A stretch of DNA of 11,076 nt, from positions 1-11,076 of the forward strand of contig CAMCUJ010000024.1 in the NCBI GenBank assembly GCA_945878965.1, written 5' to 3'. Position 1 is the first letter of the stretch. The number at the start of each line of letters is the position of its first letter. The notes beneath the pieces were generated by a model. It saw only the letters and a list, made by a program, of their open reading frames with translations, was not told the DNA's origin and ran no database searches. Position numbers and translations under genes: made by a program. The DNA comes from an uncultured Clostridia bacterium (lineage in GTDB: Bacteria; Bacillota; Clostridia; Monoglobales; Monoglobaceae). Below are positions 1-10,411 of the stretch, in pieces.

Positions 1-86
1 AGTCACCGTATGCCGCCATATCTAAGGCTGTCCAAAAATCTGTTGTATCTGTATAAGAGCTGTCTGAAATATTTTCAAGAAGTGTA
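1..86. repeat. Direct repeat copy 1 (start of second toroid domain)
   Basis: These 86 nt match 970-1052 except for a 3-nt insertion (one extra Ser codon, near 56-58) and one substitution (Glu for Lys codon). On the minus strand this is the start of the second toroid domain, directly after the Ser/Gly linker. The match runs off the window, so the true repeat is longer. Confidence 0.95.
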
Positions 87-1906
87 GACGATGAACTTCC
101 TCCTCCGCTGCCTGCTCCTCCGCCTGAACCGCTTCCCGAGCTGCTGCCCTGATTATTGTTTCCCGAAGAGCTTTGGACAACGGTTGAATAGATGTTGTAT
201 GGCTTTTTGCCGCCGTCTGAAAAGTTCTTGCCGGAAACTAAGGCTCGGAATGCCTGTTCTGTTGCCATAGCATTTAAATATTCATCAGTCGAAAGATATT
301 TAAAACCGCTTAAATCATCTGTTCTATAACTCAAAAGTGCATTTTCAAGGTTTGATGAACCCTTTATAAAGCGTGAATCGCTTAACGGGTCAATTCCAAG
401 CGAATGAAGTGCTATAACAACCATTGCATCTGTGTTTGCATTTCCGTATGAAGCATTTTCACCCTGTAAATTTGAAAGTCCGTCAATTATTGTATCAACA
501 CTGCTTTTTATATCATTATAAAGTGTTTCGTCTATACCGACATCAGCAGCGCTTTCTGCAAGATAATATTTTGCAAATGCGTTAACAGCCATAGCTGATG
601 AGTCTATATCGTTGTAGTCAACACCACCCCATGAATAGCCGTAAAGACCGTTTGCAGCTCTTGAGTCAAGCATATTTTTAAGAAGTGCCGCTCTGTCAAG
701 TGAGCCTGTCACATTATAATTATTTGAATCATAAGCGTAAAGTGCAACTATTGAATTTGTTACATATCCGAGTGAATTTACATCAAGCTGTGAAATTCTG
801 TCTGCAAGATTTACTGTTCCTTTACTGTCTGTCTGAATTTTTTCAGCGTTTAAGCCTATGGAGTTTGCCGCAAGAACTGCTTTTGAAAGCTCGCTTATTG
901 AAGCGTCCTCTTTTTCAGCGGTTTCCTTAATAAGCTTTTCAATTTCACTCTTTTGTGTAAGCTTATCCGAGTCACCGTATGCCGCCATATCTAAGGCTGT
1001 CCAAAAATCTGTTGTATCTGTATAGCTGTCTGAAATATTTTTAAGAAGTGTATCTTTAGTTTCAGAAGTATACGCATTATTATCCGAAGCTTTTTTCACT
1101 TTAATTATAGGTGATGAAATAAACACACCGTTTTCAGTATCACTTTTTGCGGATATATAGTAATAATCGGAATCTGCAAGCGGAACTTTTGCAGCTCCGT
1201 TCTCATCGGTTTTAATTCCGCTGTCCTCAAAATTTACGCCGTCACGGCTGATTGTAAGCTCTATTCCCTCTATCGGCTCATTAACTATACTTTCCTCAGG
1301 ATATGCTCCAAAGAAAGACATAAAACCGCTAAGCTTTAAAGTAACACTCTCGCAGTCTTTGCTTTCTTCGTTAAGCATAGCATAAAGGTCTGACCAATAG
1401 CTTCTATCTCCGTAGAAGAAGAAAGAAATTCTGTCGCCGTCGGATAAATAAGCCTGATCTGCCGTATATGCAGTATATGAACCGTAGGATTCATTATAAA
1501 CTCCGTCATTTGGAGTTCTGTCATTTACCATAAAGCCAAATGGTGCCGAACTGTCCGCAAATACTTTGTTTATCCAGCCGCCCGATATATCAAGGTAATT
1601 TTTCGCAGTATCTTTAGTAAATTCGTCACCGAGTACCGCCTTATGAACTGCTATAAGTGCGTCAAATACACTTATTTCATCGCTTGTGGTTTCTGTGTAA
1701 CCGTACTCGCCTGAAACTCCGCTTTCAAGGCTGAGATTTTCGTTATAGTAGATTATGCTTCCGTCTGAGTTGTCGGAAAATGTAATGCTTACATTAATTC
1801 CGGAGCCTGCTGTGCTATTTTCAGCCGCAAAGCACGGAGCGGATATGCTCATAAGCATTGTAAAGGTTAATAAAATTCCGAATATTCTTTTAAAATTCTG
1901 TTTCAT
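1..1906 (-). CDS. Secreted DUF4430 + alpha/alpha-toroid (prenyltransferase-like) protein, B12-riboswitch controlled, 3' end outside window
   Basis: The frame is open from ATG at 1904-1906 to the left edge: 635 codons are visible and there is no stop in the window. AGGA at 1917-1920 is a plausible RBS. Residues 1-27 form a signal peptide (basic start, hydrophobic core, APCFA then AE). Residues about 38-175 look like DUF4430, the transcobalamin C-terminal-like beta domain, with the usual GGWINKVF, FMVNDR and LSDGDRISFFF stretches. Residues about 175-265 look like an Ig-like or CNA-B-like linker domain. Residues about 285-575 carry squalene-cyclase/prenyltransferase-type repeats (GLYGYSWGG then DIDSSAMAVNAFA; NTDAMVVIALHSLGIDP; LNAMATEQAFRAL). 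A Ser/Gly-rich linker (about 577-606) is followed by the start of a second toroid copy. No cyclase-type catalytic Asp motif was seen, so a binding role is more likely than an enzymatic one. The cobalamin riboswitch upstream suggests extracellular corrinoid capture (inference). A surface adhesin is the alternative. Confidence 0.85.
   Translation of the reverse strand, partial: MKQNFKRIFGILLTFTMLMSISAPCFAAENSTAGSGINVSITFSDNSDGSIIYYNENLSLESGVSGEYGYTETTSDEISVFDALIAVHKAVLGDEFTKDTAKNYLDISGGWINKVFADSSAPFGFMVNDRTPNDGVYNESYGSYTAYTADQAYLSDGDRISFFFYGDRSYWSDLYAMLNEESKDCESVTLKLSGFMSFFGAYPEESIVNEPIEGIELTISRDGVNFEDSGIKTDENGAAKVPLADSDYYYISAKSDTENGVFISSPIIKVKKASDNNAYTSETKDTLLKNISDSYTDTTDFWTALDMAAYGDSDKLTQKSEIEKLIKETAEKEDASISELSKAVLAANSIGLNAEKIQTDSKGTVNLADRISQLDVNSLGYVTNSIVALYAYDSNNYNVTGSLDRAALLKNMLDSRAANGLYGYSWGGVDYNDIDSSAMAVNAFAKYYLAESAADVGIDETLYNDIKSSVDTIIDGLSNLQGENASYGNANTDAMVVIALHSLGIDPLSDSRFIKGSSNLENALLSYRTDDLSGFKYLSTDEYLNAMATEQAFRALVSGKNFSDGGKKPYNIYSTVVQSSSGNNNQGSSSGSGSGGGAGSGGGSSSSTLLENISDSSYTDTTDFWTALDMAAYGD
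970..1052. repeat. Direct repeat copy 2 (start of first toroid domain)
   Basis: Partner of 1-86, about 970 nt away. It encodes residues about 285-312, including TDTTDFWTALDMAAYGDS. Such high nucleotide identity, synonymous sites included, points to a recent in-frame domain duplication rather than two old domains. Confidence 0.95.
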
Positions 1907-1974
1907 TTGTCTGTTGTCCTTTCTTTTGTTATTGAATTTTAAGATTAATTAAATTTAAGCGGCATATCCCCCCT

Positions 1975-2010
1975 ATTAAAATAAAAAATTCATCTTTTCA
2001 CAAAGATGAA
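1975..2010 (-). terminator. Intrinsic terminator in the B12-riboswitch leader
   Basis: On the minus strand TTCATCTTT (2010-2002) pairs perfectly with AAAGATGAA (1997-1989) around a 4-nt loop, followed by TTTTTTATTTT. It lies after the cobalamin aptamer and about 70 nt before the ATG at 1906. It is best read as the expression platform: transcription stops here when cobalamin is bound (inference from how this riboswitch class usually works). Confidence 0.8.
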
Positions 2011-2072
2011 CATACAAACAAAAGGGTATGAAAAAACTTCTATAGTGAAGAAAATTCCAATAACCTGACGAA

Positions 2073-2106
2073 TGTACACTTCAAGTCCCTGTGAAGTATT
2101 TGTACA
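2073..2106 (-). promoter_or_regulatory. Riboswitch P13-like hairpin with kissing-loop candidate
   Basis: On the minus strand ACTTCA (2097-2092) pairs with TGAAGT (2083-2078), extended by TGTAC (2106-2102) with GTACA (2077-2073). The 8-nt loop CAGGGACT contains GGACT (2088-2084). This is complementary to AGTCC (2214-2210), in the position of aptamer loop L5. An L5-L13 kissing interaction is the known ligand-dependent switch of cobalamin riboswitches. Confidence 0.65.
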
Positions 2107-2110
2107 AAAG

Positions 2111-2258
2111 AATGAGGCAGGTCTTTCGACTTAGACTTAAAGCGGCAAGCCTCGCCTTCCCGAAACTTTTCAGTGACATTATGAGGCTTCCTCAGTCATC
2201 ACGGCAGCAGGACTGTCTGAGATTTTCACTCAGTTCCCTATTACAGCGGTTAAAACTT
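2111..2258 (-). promoter_or_regulatory. Cobalamin (B12) riboswitch aptamer
   Basis: Reading the minus strand, the class landmarks come in order. TAGGGAACTGAGTGAAAATC (2240-2221) is the GGGAA..GGTG.AA.TC block. CAGTCCTGCTGCCGT (2215-2201) is the P5/L5 block. TGTCACTG (2178-2171) corresponds to GCCACTG. GGGAAGGC follows at 2161-2154. The B12 box runs from AAGTC (2138-2134) to AAAGACCTGCC (2126-2116). It sits between a strong promoter and the secreted DUF4430/toroid gene. Cobalamin, probably the adenosyl form, should turn that gene off. The outer edges (P1) are approximate. Confidence 0.95.
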
Positions 2259-2311
2259 TTAAAAAGCCTTAATCGCTCACCGTCATTCTTAAATATTAAA
2301 TTACAAGATAT

Positions 2312-2340
2312 ATAATAGCATTTTATTAACGTCCTGTCAA
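2312..2340 (-). promoter_or_regulatory. SigA-type promoter of the B12-regulated gene
   Basis: On the minus strand, TTGACA (2340-2335), a 17-nt spacer, then TATTAT (2317-2312). Transcription should start near 2305, about 45 nt before the aptamer, giving a leader of about 400 nt to the ATG at 1906. Confidence 0.88.
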
Positions 2341-4058: not shown

Positions 4059-4946
4059 TTGAAGTTTTATATGTCAAACAACAATAACCGAAATATGAAT
4101 CCGTCGGTTTCATCATCAATTCAGGATAATGCAGCACTTGATTCTTCAAATGATGAAATTAATGAACTTATGCCTCATAAGCATTTAAAAAGACAGGATA
4201 TGTCCTCAGATTCAAATGCTGTGAATATGACGGCTGAAAATTTACGGGCTGAAGAATCGGAAAAAAATATGAATAATACTGATAACGATGCAGAAATGCA
4301 AAGAGAAAGCAGAAAAAGAAGTTATCCTAATCCTGCTTGGCCGTCAATGCAGCCTGTGGTCGTAATGCCGCCCGGTTCAAATACTGCATCGCTTGGACTT
4401 CCGGATGCTGCGATTTACAGAAATCGTTTAAGCGTTGACACCGGAAATAATAACAGTTCGTTAAATCAAATGAACACTATGAACAGAATGTTAAATAATA
4501 TGAATGACACAAGTAATATGGACTTTAAAGAATACCGACGAAACAAAAATCTTATAGACAGCACAATGAACGATTACGTAAGTATGGGTATGGACGGTAT
4601 GAGAAGAAATGCTGTGAATAACAACGGAAACAGTATGAATACTATGAATATGATGCCGTCTGTGAGGAACAGAAATATGCCAAACTATAAGGTAAGTGAT
4701 ATGGTAAGAATACGTCCGTCATATATGGAGGATATGACGATGACAGAATATATGATGGGCAGAATAGGTGAATATATTAAGGTTGATTTATGCTGCGGAG
4801 GAGTCGGAAGCTCAAAGGTTGGAGTTTTACGTGAGATTGGCGATGATTTTATAGTTCTTGAGGACGCCGAAAGCGGAAATTATATGGTTTGCAGCCTTAA
4901 GAGTATTCAGCTTATATATGTATATGATGACGGAGATAATGAATAA
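4059..4946 (+). CDS. Asn/Met-rich protein with GerQ-like C-terminal domain, putative spore coat protein
   Basis: The start is TTG at 4059: GGAGG (4046-4050) is 8 nt upstream, whereas the in-frame ATG at 4071 is 20 nt away. The product has 295 residues. Residues 1-90 are polar and rich in Asn, Ser and charge. Residues about 90-120 are Pro-rich (NPAWPSMQPV). Residues 130-210 repeat Met-Asn motifs (NTMNRMLNNMND; NSMNTMNMM). Residues about 230-290 form a compact beta-rich domain (RIGEYIKVDLC, KVGVLREIGDDFIVLEDAESG, SLKSIQLIYVYD). This resembles the GerQ-type domain of clostridial coat proteins: a sheet with a 'gives/does not give' ligand-free hydrophobic pattern and no catalytic residues. There is no signal peptide, which fits assembly from the mother-cell cytosol. 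The Cys pair at 245-246 could cross-link. The coat role rests on composition, domain resemblance and the neighbour spoIVB. A terminator follows at 4984. Confidence 0.78.
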   Translation: MKFYMSNNNNRNMNPSVSSSIQDNAALDSSNDEINELMPHKHLKRQDMSSDSNAVNMTAENLRAEESEKNMNNTDNDAEMQRESRKRSYPNPAWPSMQPVVVMPPGSNTASLGLPDAAIYRNRLSVDTGNNNSSLNQMNTMNRMLNNMNDTSNMDFKEYRRNKNLIDSTMNDYVSMGMDGMRRNAVNNNGNSMNTMNMMPSVRNRNMPNYKVSDMVRIRPSYMEDMTMTEYMMGRIGEYIKVDLCCGGVGSSKVGVLREIGDDFIVLEDAESGNYMVCSLKSIQLIYVYDDGDNE

Positions 4947-8897: not shown

Positions 8898-8916
8898 GAA
8901 TTAAGAAAGTAACATA

Positions 8917-9075
8917 GACTTGTTAGGTGAGGTTACTTTGCAGATAATGCTATTGCCCGGAAATGTCGAAAGACGCCAACGGGTCAGCAGGCTTTGTCGG
9001 ATTAAGGCATTGCCTAATATAGCTGATACAAACGTATTTGTATCTATGCTGCATAGAGCCAAAGCTCAACGAATC
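8917..9075 (+). promoter_or_regulatory. M-box (ykoK-type) Mg2+ riboswitch
   Basis: The hallmark blocks are all present in order: GTTAGGTGAGGTTAC (8922-8936), TGCCCGGAAATGTCGAAAGA then CGCCAACGGGTCAGCAGG (8951-8989), GGCATTGCCTAATA, ATGCTGCATAGAGCC, and AAAGCTCAACGAATC (9061-9075). Stem P1 forms between GACTTGTT (8917-8924) and AACGAATC (9068-9075) with one mismatch. The class senses Mg2+ and stops expression of Mg2+ transporters when Mg2+ is plentiful. Here corA lies downstream, which agrees. Confidence 0.97.
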
Positions 9076-9271
9076 AGTAAAGCCCTTTTGTTTGCGACGG
9101 CGGTCGCTTTTAAACGGCAGTATTGCTGCTAAACGGATGTATTTTTGTTCGGCTGTACCGGCATAACAGAATACAAAAATCCAATTATAAACTCACAGAT
9201 GCTGATAATATTTTAATTTCAGACGTTCATTTTTCCGCCGTAGCCGCTTTTTGATATTTTTTTGGACTTAT
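9076..9271 (+). other. Long expression-platform spacer of the M-box
   Basis: About 200 nt separate aptamer and terminator, longer than usual. It holds GCGAC-GGCG-GTCGC-TTTT (9094-9111) and ATTTTTGT (9141-9148) opposite ACAAAAAT (9173-9180). One of these may form the antiterminator or a pause hairpin; folding was not computed. Confidence 0.4.
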
Positions 9272-9472: not shown

Positions 9473-10411
9473 ATGATGAATTTTTACAAAAGCGAAGATG
9501 GAATGATAAAACAGGCGAATGTACTCGAAAACGGTGTATGGATTAATATGGTTAATCCTGATAAGAATGAACAGCAGTACATTACGGAAACGCTTGATAT
9601 TGAGCAGAGCTTTATTATGGCGGCTCTTGATGAAGAGGAGGCATCACATATTGACATTGATGATGAATCGGAACAGAAGCTTATAATTGTCGATGTTCCT
9701 ATTATTTCAAAGGAACATAGCGATTATATTCTTTACAGTACAATTCCTTTAGCAATTATTATTACCAATAATAACATTATAACTATTTCTACAAAGGAAA
9801 ATTTCATTATTAATGACATTATTGAAAACAGATATAAAAATATTAATATAGCACTCAAAACCAGATTCCTTTTGCAGATACTTTACAGAGTTGCTCAATT
9901 GTTTTTAAAATATCTTAAACAAATTGATAAGATAAGCAGTTATGTTGAAACTCAGCTTCATAAATCTATGCGAAATAAGGAGCTTCTTCAGCTTATGGAG
10001 ATTGAAAAGAGTCTTGTGTATTTTTCAACTTCCCTTAAGGCAAACGAGGTTACTCTTCAAAAAATATTCAGAGGCAGAATAGTTAAGCTTTATGAAGATG
10101 ACAAAGAGCTTTTAGAGGATGTTCTTATTGAGATTAAGCAGGCAATAGAAATGTGTAATATTTACAGAGATATTTTAAGCGGAACTATGGATGCGTTTGC
10201 TTCAATCATTTCCAATAATCTTAATATTGTAATGAAGGTATTGACTTCGCTTACCATACTTATGGCAATTCCTAATATAATCACAAGCTTTTACGGAATG
10301 AATGTTGACCTTCCGTTAGTGTTTGGAGGCAGCTTCTGGTTTCCGCTTGTGCTGTCGATAATCTGTGTTTTAGTGACATTCTTCTTCCTTAAAAAGACTA
10401 AAATGATGTAG
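9473..10411 (+). CDS. corA: CorA-family Mg2+ channel/transporter
   Basis: CorA forms a pentameric Mg2+ channel in the cell membrane. The 312 residues match the family length. Residues 1-130 are the cytosolic alpha/beta domain with an acidic patch (LDEEEASHIDIDDESE, 52-67). About 131-250 are the long helices forming the funnel. TM1 is about 253-274 and ends in the signature YGMNV (Gly275-Met276-Asn277), the selectivity filter. TM2 is about 288-307, and a basic KKTK tail lies in the cytosol. ATG 9473 and ATG 9476 are both possible; the second has better spacing (8 nt) from GGTGAG at 9462-9467. It lies downstream of an M-box and its terminator, so expression should rise when Mg2+ is low. Co2+ or Ni2+ transport cannot be excluded from sequence. 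A terminator follows at 10472. Confidence 0.96.
   Translation: MMNFYKSEDGMIKQANVLENGVWINMVNPDKNEQQYITETLDIEQSFIMAALDEEEASHIDIDDESEQKLIIVDVPIISKEHSDYILYSTIPLAIIITNNNIITISTKENFIINDIIENRYKNINIALKTRFLLQILYRVAQLFLKYLKQIDKISSYVETQLHKSMRNKELLQLMEIEKSLVYFSTSLKANEVTLQKIFRGRIVKLYEDDKELLEDVLIEIKQAIEMCNIYRDILSGTMDAFASIISNNLNIVMKVLTSLTILMAIPNIITSFYGMNVDLPLVFGGSFWFPLVLSIICVLVTFFFLKKTKMM

Follow-up and report, generated by a model that had tools for sequence, protein, structure and literature searches.

A cobalamin riboswitch precedes the gene of a putative surface corrinoid catcher with intrinsic factor-like folds in an uncultured Clostridia bacterium

Burroughs et al. (2007; PMC1796856) described secreted proteins of Gram-positive bacteria in which a transcobalamin-type beta-grasp domain and an alpha/alpha toroid are fused in either order, some of them with Ig-fold domains, and whose genes share operons with CbiO-like and CbiQ-like ones. 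In the sections of that paper devoted to them, these proteins are predicted to scavenge vitamin B12 or its precursors in bacteria that lack key enzymes of B12 synthesis, and the B12 carriers of animals are predicted to have been acquired from such bacteria. Here we analyze a stretch of 11,076 bases, hereafter the window, which is the whole of contig CAMCUJ010000024.1 (C24) from the genome of an uncultured Clostridia bacterium (1.52 Mb, 79.4% complete, 255 contigs). It carries a cobalamin riboswitch followed by an open reading frame (ORF) for an exported protein composed of the same kinds of domains. With a probability of roughly 0.8, this protein is a putative surface catcher of corrinoids that feeds a CbrT-like energy-coupling factor (ECF) importer and is gated by the riboswitch.

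The prediction of 2007 leads us to file the window protein as a member of that predicted kind. Like the class as portrayed there, it combines a signal peptide (recognized by eye) with an SLBB/DUF4430 domain fused to an alpha/alpha toroid. Linkage to transporter genes is seen in part of the relatives, where ECF genes stand on the same strand in 12 of 59 loci, and the corresponding cluster of the window's own genome is located on a separate contig, C164. A MetH-type gene noted in this genome departs from the description given in those sections. What the present analysis adds to the prediction is the cobalamin riboswitch, SLH anchoring in relatives, a second, divergent DUF4430 domain at the N terminus and a CbrT-like S-component; the words riboswitch, SLH, S-layer, S-component and energy-coupling are absent from the main text of PMC1796856. 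Our searches of an open-licence library, which leaves out the bulk of the subscription literature and every bioRxiv preprint, yielded neither a report joining DUF4430/toroid proteins to a cobalamin riboswitch or to SLH anchoring nor an experimental test of the bacterial toroid/DUF4430 proteins.

An earlier note, made from the letters of the window alone, had placed a cobalamin riboswitch ahead of a signal-peptide ORF, and the covariance model bears this out. The RF00174 match (Table 1) covers model positions 1–189 of 189 and lies above the gathering score of 31.5, which indicates a full aptamer; it is the sole match at E≤0.001 in the 79%-complete genome. The promoter-like site was the only one returned by a scan in which shuffled sequences gave a mean of 1.5, so that this consensus match is by itself not beyond chance, but its position immediately ahead of the aptamer fits. 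Between aptamer and ORF, a hairpin of 9 bp (10 bp with a closing G-U pair; 2010–1989) is followed by six T residues and may serve as expression platform. A terminator scan that requires at least three G-C pairs did not report it, and this stretch folds with a z-score of only −1.88.

The domains of the exported protein are largely invisible to family models. Pfam and NCBIfam gave nothing above cut-off for it, PF14478 (DUF4430) did not match at E≤1, and the Ig-like region produced weak Pfam matches below cut-off (NOMO1-like, SpaA). We rely on profiles of the N domain, the Ig-like domain and the toroid (residue ranges in Table 1), built from an alignment (A1) of the window protein with 12 relatives from other-genome matches. 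Profile–profile comparison by hhalign related the N-domain family to DUF4430 domains with a probability of 97.0% (E 9.3e-11), and controls of the N domain against toroid, SLH and Ig profiles stayed at 0.2–1.1%. By remote homology, the N domain is thus a divergent DUF4430/transcobalamin-type beta-grasp, and the toroid is supported by the predicted structure and Foldseek; the corresponding assignments of the earlier note were right. In our search of 60 genomes (the window's own and 59 others), the window protein was matched in 30 of the 59, in some by the toroid alone. Used as a single query it retrieved no relative from named genomes, and alignment A1 gave 57 loci there, mostly in Clostridia and many of them of Monoglobus type, including loci of Clostridium ljungdahlii, Cellulosilyticum, Urinicoccus, Blautia and the bacillus Metabacillus bambusae.

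Predicted structures connect these domains to animal B12 carriers. An AlphaFold2 model of residues 28–575, computed from a 39-row alignment, reached a pLDDT of 87.4 and a pTM of 0.64. Foldseek found 14 PDB matches at E≤0.001, six of which are transcobalamin or haptocorrin (rmsd 4.7–8.8 Å); intrinsic factor was matched at E values of 4.7e-3 and 5.2e-3. We also modelled the top scorer among the other-genome matches, a relative with N-Ig-toroid-DUF4430 architecture (locus L107 of genome G012; 36% identity to the window protein in alignment A2; pLDDT 85.1, pTM 0.61). With E values from 8.8e-11 to 7.1e-9, its 13 best PDB matches comprise no proteins other than intrinsic factor, transcobalamin and haptocorrin. 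A link to the animal proteins by sequence alone was too weak and was dropped. A phmmer search of the window protein against the PDB gave low scores, and the alignments that were inspected rest on the Ser/Gly linker; profiles A2, A3 and A5 retrieved mainly chains of squalene-hopene-cyclase type and of complement, or nothing significant.

Human intrinsic factor, transcobalamin and haptocorrin likewise unite an alpha-toroid with a beta-grasp domain, and they are the best PDB matches of the L107 model and among the best of the window model, at about 11–15% identity in structural alignments. Their toroid-then-beta order is seen in 14 of 15 fetched relatives with N-Ig-toroid architecture, in which a standard DUF4430 domain and then three SLH domains follow the toroid. 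The statement that the window protein has the two folds in the opposite order is thus accurate for the part present, a beta-grasp followed by a toroid, and becomes incomplete once these relatives are considered. In contrast to the human carriers, the family adds the N-terminal beta-grasp, the Ig-like domain and, in relatives, SLH domains, and its binding of B12 is a prediction. The toroid may also have been duplicated. Bases 1–86 of the contig, situated behind the Ser/Gly linker, nearly repeat bases 970–1052 at the start of the toroid, and the two copies differ by one 3-base indel and one substitution. This near-repeat, which the earlier note had passed over, may stem from a recent duplication of the toroid or from the assembly. 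The differences between the copies and the presence of a tandem toroid elsewhere (L132) make a genuine second copy conceivable.

The association with B12 riboswitches recurs in related genomes. All 59 RF00174 matches of the 60-genome search besides the window's own were examined (36 plus 23 loci), counting same-strand genes of at least 120 aa as first genes and taking same-strand genes up to 11 kb away as the neighborhood. In 36 of the 59 loci the first gene carries a toroid, DUF4430 or N domain, and in 40 such a gene lies within this neighborhood; the 12 loci with ECF genes on one strand with the surface gene belong to these 40. Two further loci (L211, L215), in which the riboswitch directly precedes genes for EcfT and a fused EcfAA'S with no surface gene between, tie the importer itself to B12 control. 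Within the taxonomic family of the window, the counts are 26 of 39 for the first gene and 30 of 39 within 11 kb, plus the two EcfT-first loci. One such order is that of L071 of genome G008, where the riboswitch is followed by genes for a 1423-aa surface protein, a 535-aa toroid-SLH protein, a 259-aa membrane-type DUF4430 protein (membrane segment assigned by eye), a 313-aa EcfT-like protein that has no Pfam match, and an 895-aa fused EcfA-A'-S. Of the 57 loci in named genomes, 16 were scanned against Rfam; 13 contain at least one cobalamin riboswitch (7 of 8 and 6 of 8), in 10 of them with a toroid or DUF4430 gene directly after it, and nine of the 16 also have genes of EcfT, EcfAA' or S type.

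Two further observations concern these riboswitches. In L081, L082 and L083 (genus g6, Monoglobus-type) there is a second cobalamin-riboswitch unit consisting of a gene for a 1462–1518-aa toroid protein and a large ORF of 1079–1328 aa, the 1079-aa one being cut by the contig end, which matches none of the profiles used. Weak matches of 31.9 and 30.4 bits occur in L217 and L219, both from genomes of genus g2, with a 211-aa gene after and an ABC ATPase gene before the riboswitch.

The window's own genome encodes a candidate importer. Contig C164 (4,190 bases) contains genes for a DUF4430 protein of membrane type (197 aa), for EcfT-like (301 aa) and EcfAA' (567 aa) proteins and for an S-component (231 aa). 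For the latter, 6fnp_A was the only PDB match at E≤1 (E 2.7e-4); according to the parts of PMC5997447 used here, this entry is ECF-CbrT, a transporter of cobalamin and cobinamide. The S-component is related to CbrT by sequence, and cobalamin transport is its predicted function. The EcfT-like protein, a homologue of the one in L071, matched CbiQ of the cobalt family below cut-off, and the S-component had no CbiM match at E≤0.01. The earlier idea of a scavenging step outside the ABC and ECF importers is not supported, in view of the C164 genes and of the 12 loci with same-strand ECF genes. Its companion suggestion, to look for ECF or Btu genes under the same riboswitch, found the ECF set in the genome; the only riboswitch detected sits on C24. 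A MetH-type gene, cut by its contig, encodes pterin, homocysteine and B12-binding domains. Of the 60 genomes, one yielded CbiD; the genome of the window did not, and by this one marker a host without B12 biosynthesis is predicted for a genome that is 79% complete.

Taking these data together we propose the following model. At low intracellular B12 the riboswitch would leave the gene on, and the multidomain protein would be exported and, on the outer side of the membrane, capture cobalamin or some corrinoid related to it. The alpha-toroid and the beta-grasp (DUF4430/SLBB) domain may close over the ligand as in intrinsic factor and transcobalamin, while three SLH domains, as in relatives, would fix the protein to the wall. 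The captured corrinoid would then pass to the membrane-tethered DUF4430 protein and on to the CbrT-like importer encoded on C164, and once imported it could feed MetH. The description in the earlier note of a riboswitch-led, exported, intrinsic factor-like capture protein of a Gram-positive bacterium is upheld as regards riboswitch, domains and folds, and its B12 binding keeps the rank of a prediction.

Surface capture of B12 is also known from Bacteroides. BtuG has a beta-propeller fold and thus differs from the window protein in its fold. It resembles that protein in being a surface-exposed B12 capture protein of gut bacteria that belongs to riboswitch-regulated transport loci, and differs in being a Bacteroidetes surface lipoprotein that interacts with BtuB; in the portions of PMC6143338 that treat it, the authors detected no homologs beyond the Bacteroidetes. 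ECF-CbrT of Lactobacillus delbrueckii, the sole PDB match of the C164 S-component, is a cobalamin and cobinamide importer of the ECF type, as set out in the corresponding parts of PMC5997447. Relative to it, the window's genome encodes extracellular and membrane-type binding domains in addition. CbrT uses an ECF module that is shared with other S-components, whereas here the genes for T, A, A' and S form a cluster, and A, A' and S are fused in some relatives.

Several findings weigh against the proposed role. By E value, the best PDB match of the window model is complement C4b, and eight of its 14 matches are chains of C4b/C3 type, at an rmsd of 21–32 Å. The L107 model superimposes on B12 carriers with a whole-chain rmsd of 23–25 Å, and we take this to mean that domain kinds and order agree while the domains of the model are placed otherwise than in the closed clamp of the human proteins. 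PF01122 (Cobalamin_bind) does not match the window protein in Pfam and matches two of 24 relatives weakly (best E 0.0017), and the toroid+DUF4430 profile reaches transcobalamin at no better than E 0.14. As to gene neighborhood, 17 of the 59 riboswitches lead neither surface nor EcfT genes, four of them having no gene of at least 120 aa before the contig end. Among the Rfam-scanned loci, the riboswitch lies about 1–6 kb ahead of the first recognized gene in L136, L138 and L140, and none was found in three of the 16 (L123, L124, L139). C24 breaks off within the surface gene and C164 starts shortly ahead of its DUF4430 gene, so that both contigs end on the sides that bear on gene linkage and on riboswitch control of C164. 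Neither of two cobalamin adenosyltransferase families was found, a weak negative in a 79%-complete genome. One of the 15 relatives of the same architecture, L085, is devoid of DUF4430 and SLH domains. Finally, the C-terminal part of the window gene is missing at the contig edge, a truncation not mentioned in the earlier note, so that the window displays the toroid fold and cannot show a DUF4430 domain or SLH domains behind it. Since the sole DUF4430 match above cut-off in this genome is on C164, the C terminus is probably unassembled. A weaker match on contig C47 (15.6 bits, below cut-off) was dropped; its ORF resembles HisF by eye.

The ligand might be another compound of the B12 pathway handled by the same design, such as cobalt, a lower-ligand base or alpha-ribazole, or an incomplete corrinoid like cobinamide. 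Transporters of cobalt and of precursors are also under B12 riboswitches, as stated in the part of PMC3766115 considered here, the EcfT-like protein has its sub-threshold resemblance to CbiQ, and cobinamide is also taken by CbrT (PMC5997447, as above). We nevertheless regard a different ligand as unlikely, given that the S-component has no CbiM match at E≤0.01 and finds its only PDB match in CbrT, and that the modelled surface domains resemble corrinoid binders. With CbiD not found there is, moreover, no evident use of cobalt for de novo synthesis, and cobinamide would still fall into the corrinoid class of the reading that we favor.

A function in adhesion, in the S-layer structure or as a toroid enzyme, with the toroid and the beta-grasp binding polymers of the host or the wall, would make the riboswitch a mere co-regulator. 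SLH, Ig-like and PT-rich segments, all present in relatives, are common in adhesins, the window's genome has 35 SLH matches, and toroids are known in complement and terpene cyclases too. The recurrent linkage to B12 riboswitches and CbrT-like importer genes makes such a role highly improbable. DxDD is the catalytic motif of class II terpene cyclases including squalene-hopene cyclase, and CGEQ is the thioester motif of complement (C3d-type toroid); neither occurs in the 635 aa of the window protein. A protein of this kind could also act as a corrinoid sink at the S-layer that stores B12 or withholds it from competitors with no hand-off to an importer, as might be suspected for nine loci of genus g6 whose riboswitch leads a toroid-DUF4430-SLH gene and which have no same-strand ECF gene after it within the fetched stretch. 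Since the 12 loci mentioned have both surface and ECF genes behind the riboswitch in one orientation, we consider a pure sink quite improbable and retain the corrinoid catcher feeding a CbrT-like importer as our working model.

Table 1. The riboswitch-led unit of the window: features, positions and evidence
Feature	Position	Strand	Basis
Sigma-70-type promoter-like site, TTGACA-17-TATTAT, TG before −10	2340–2312	minus	consensus, 11/12 matches
Cobalamin riboswitch aptamer (RF00174)	2299–2100	minus	covariance model, 86.5 bits, E 1e-20
Candidate expression platform, possible transcription terminator (hairpin and six T)	2010–1983	minus	sequence and fold
ORF, exported B12-capture candidate, 635 aa, 3' end lost at contig edge	1906–2	minus	ORF translation
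Signal peptide, residues 1–27, AxA-type site	1906–1826	minus	by eye from translation, no predictor
Divergent DUF4430/transcobalamin-type beta-grasp (N domain), residues 39–199	1792–1310	minus	hhalign and predicted structure
Ig-like/prealbumin-like beta domain, residues 200–270	1309–1097	minus	profile and predicted structure
Alpha/alpha toroid, residues 284–574	1057–185	minus	profile, predicted structure, Foldseek
Ser/Gly/Asn-rich linker	181–89	minus	translation
Possible start of second toroid-like copy, residues 607–635, cut by contig end	88–2	minus	near-repeat and profile

The remainder of the contig holds further features. Upstream of the riboswitch unit and on the same strand is a SpoIVB peptidase gene (3599–2514, minus strand), which would fit a spore-forming lineage. 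An Asn/Met-rich protein of 295 aa (4059–4946) has no Pfam or NCBIfam match at E≤1, and its gene is adjoined by a small ORF of 37 aa, mostly Asn and Gln by eye (3866–3753, minus strand). An AAA-type ATPase gene (6281–5088, minus strand) is split into two ORFs of 131 and 222 aa and is apparently broken. An M-box magnesium riboswitch (RF00380, 131.7 bits; 8912–9084, plus strand) lies upstream of a CorA-like gene (9473–10411), and at the contig edge (11070–10648, minus strand) a partial gene for minor capsid protein 2 of a phage points to a prophage or its remnant.

Our study places a riboswitch, a surface protein of intrinsic factor-like fold and a CbrT-like importer into one concrete system that can be tested. 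We give even odds to the broader idea that many Clostridia and some Bacilli move corrinoids through the Gram-positive wall by a relay under riboswitch control, in which SLH-anchored beta-toroid-beta clamps would bind B12 at the S-layer and deliver it to smaller toroid-SLH proteins and a DUF4430 domain tethered to the membrane, and these to a CbrT-like importer, and that such bacteria were the source of animal intrinsic factor and transcobalamin. Corrinoid capture outside the membrane appears to be far less understood in Gram-positive gut bacteria than the BtuG/BtuB system of Bacteroides. If the relay exists, it would represent an ECF transporter served by a series of extracellular binding proteins of its own.

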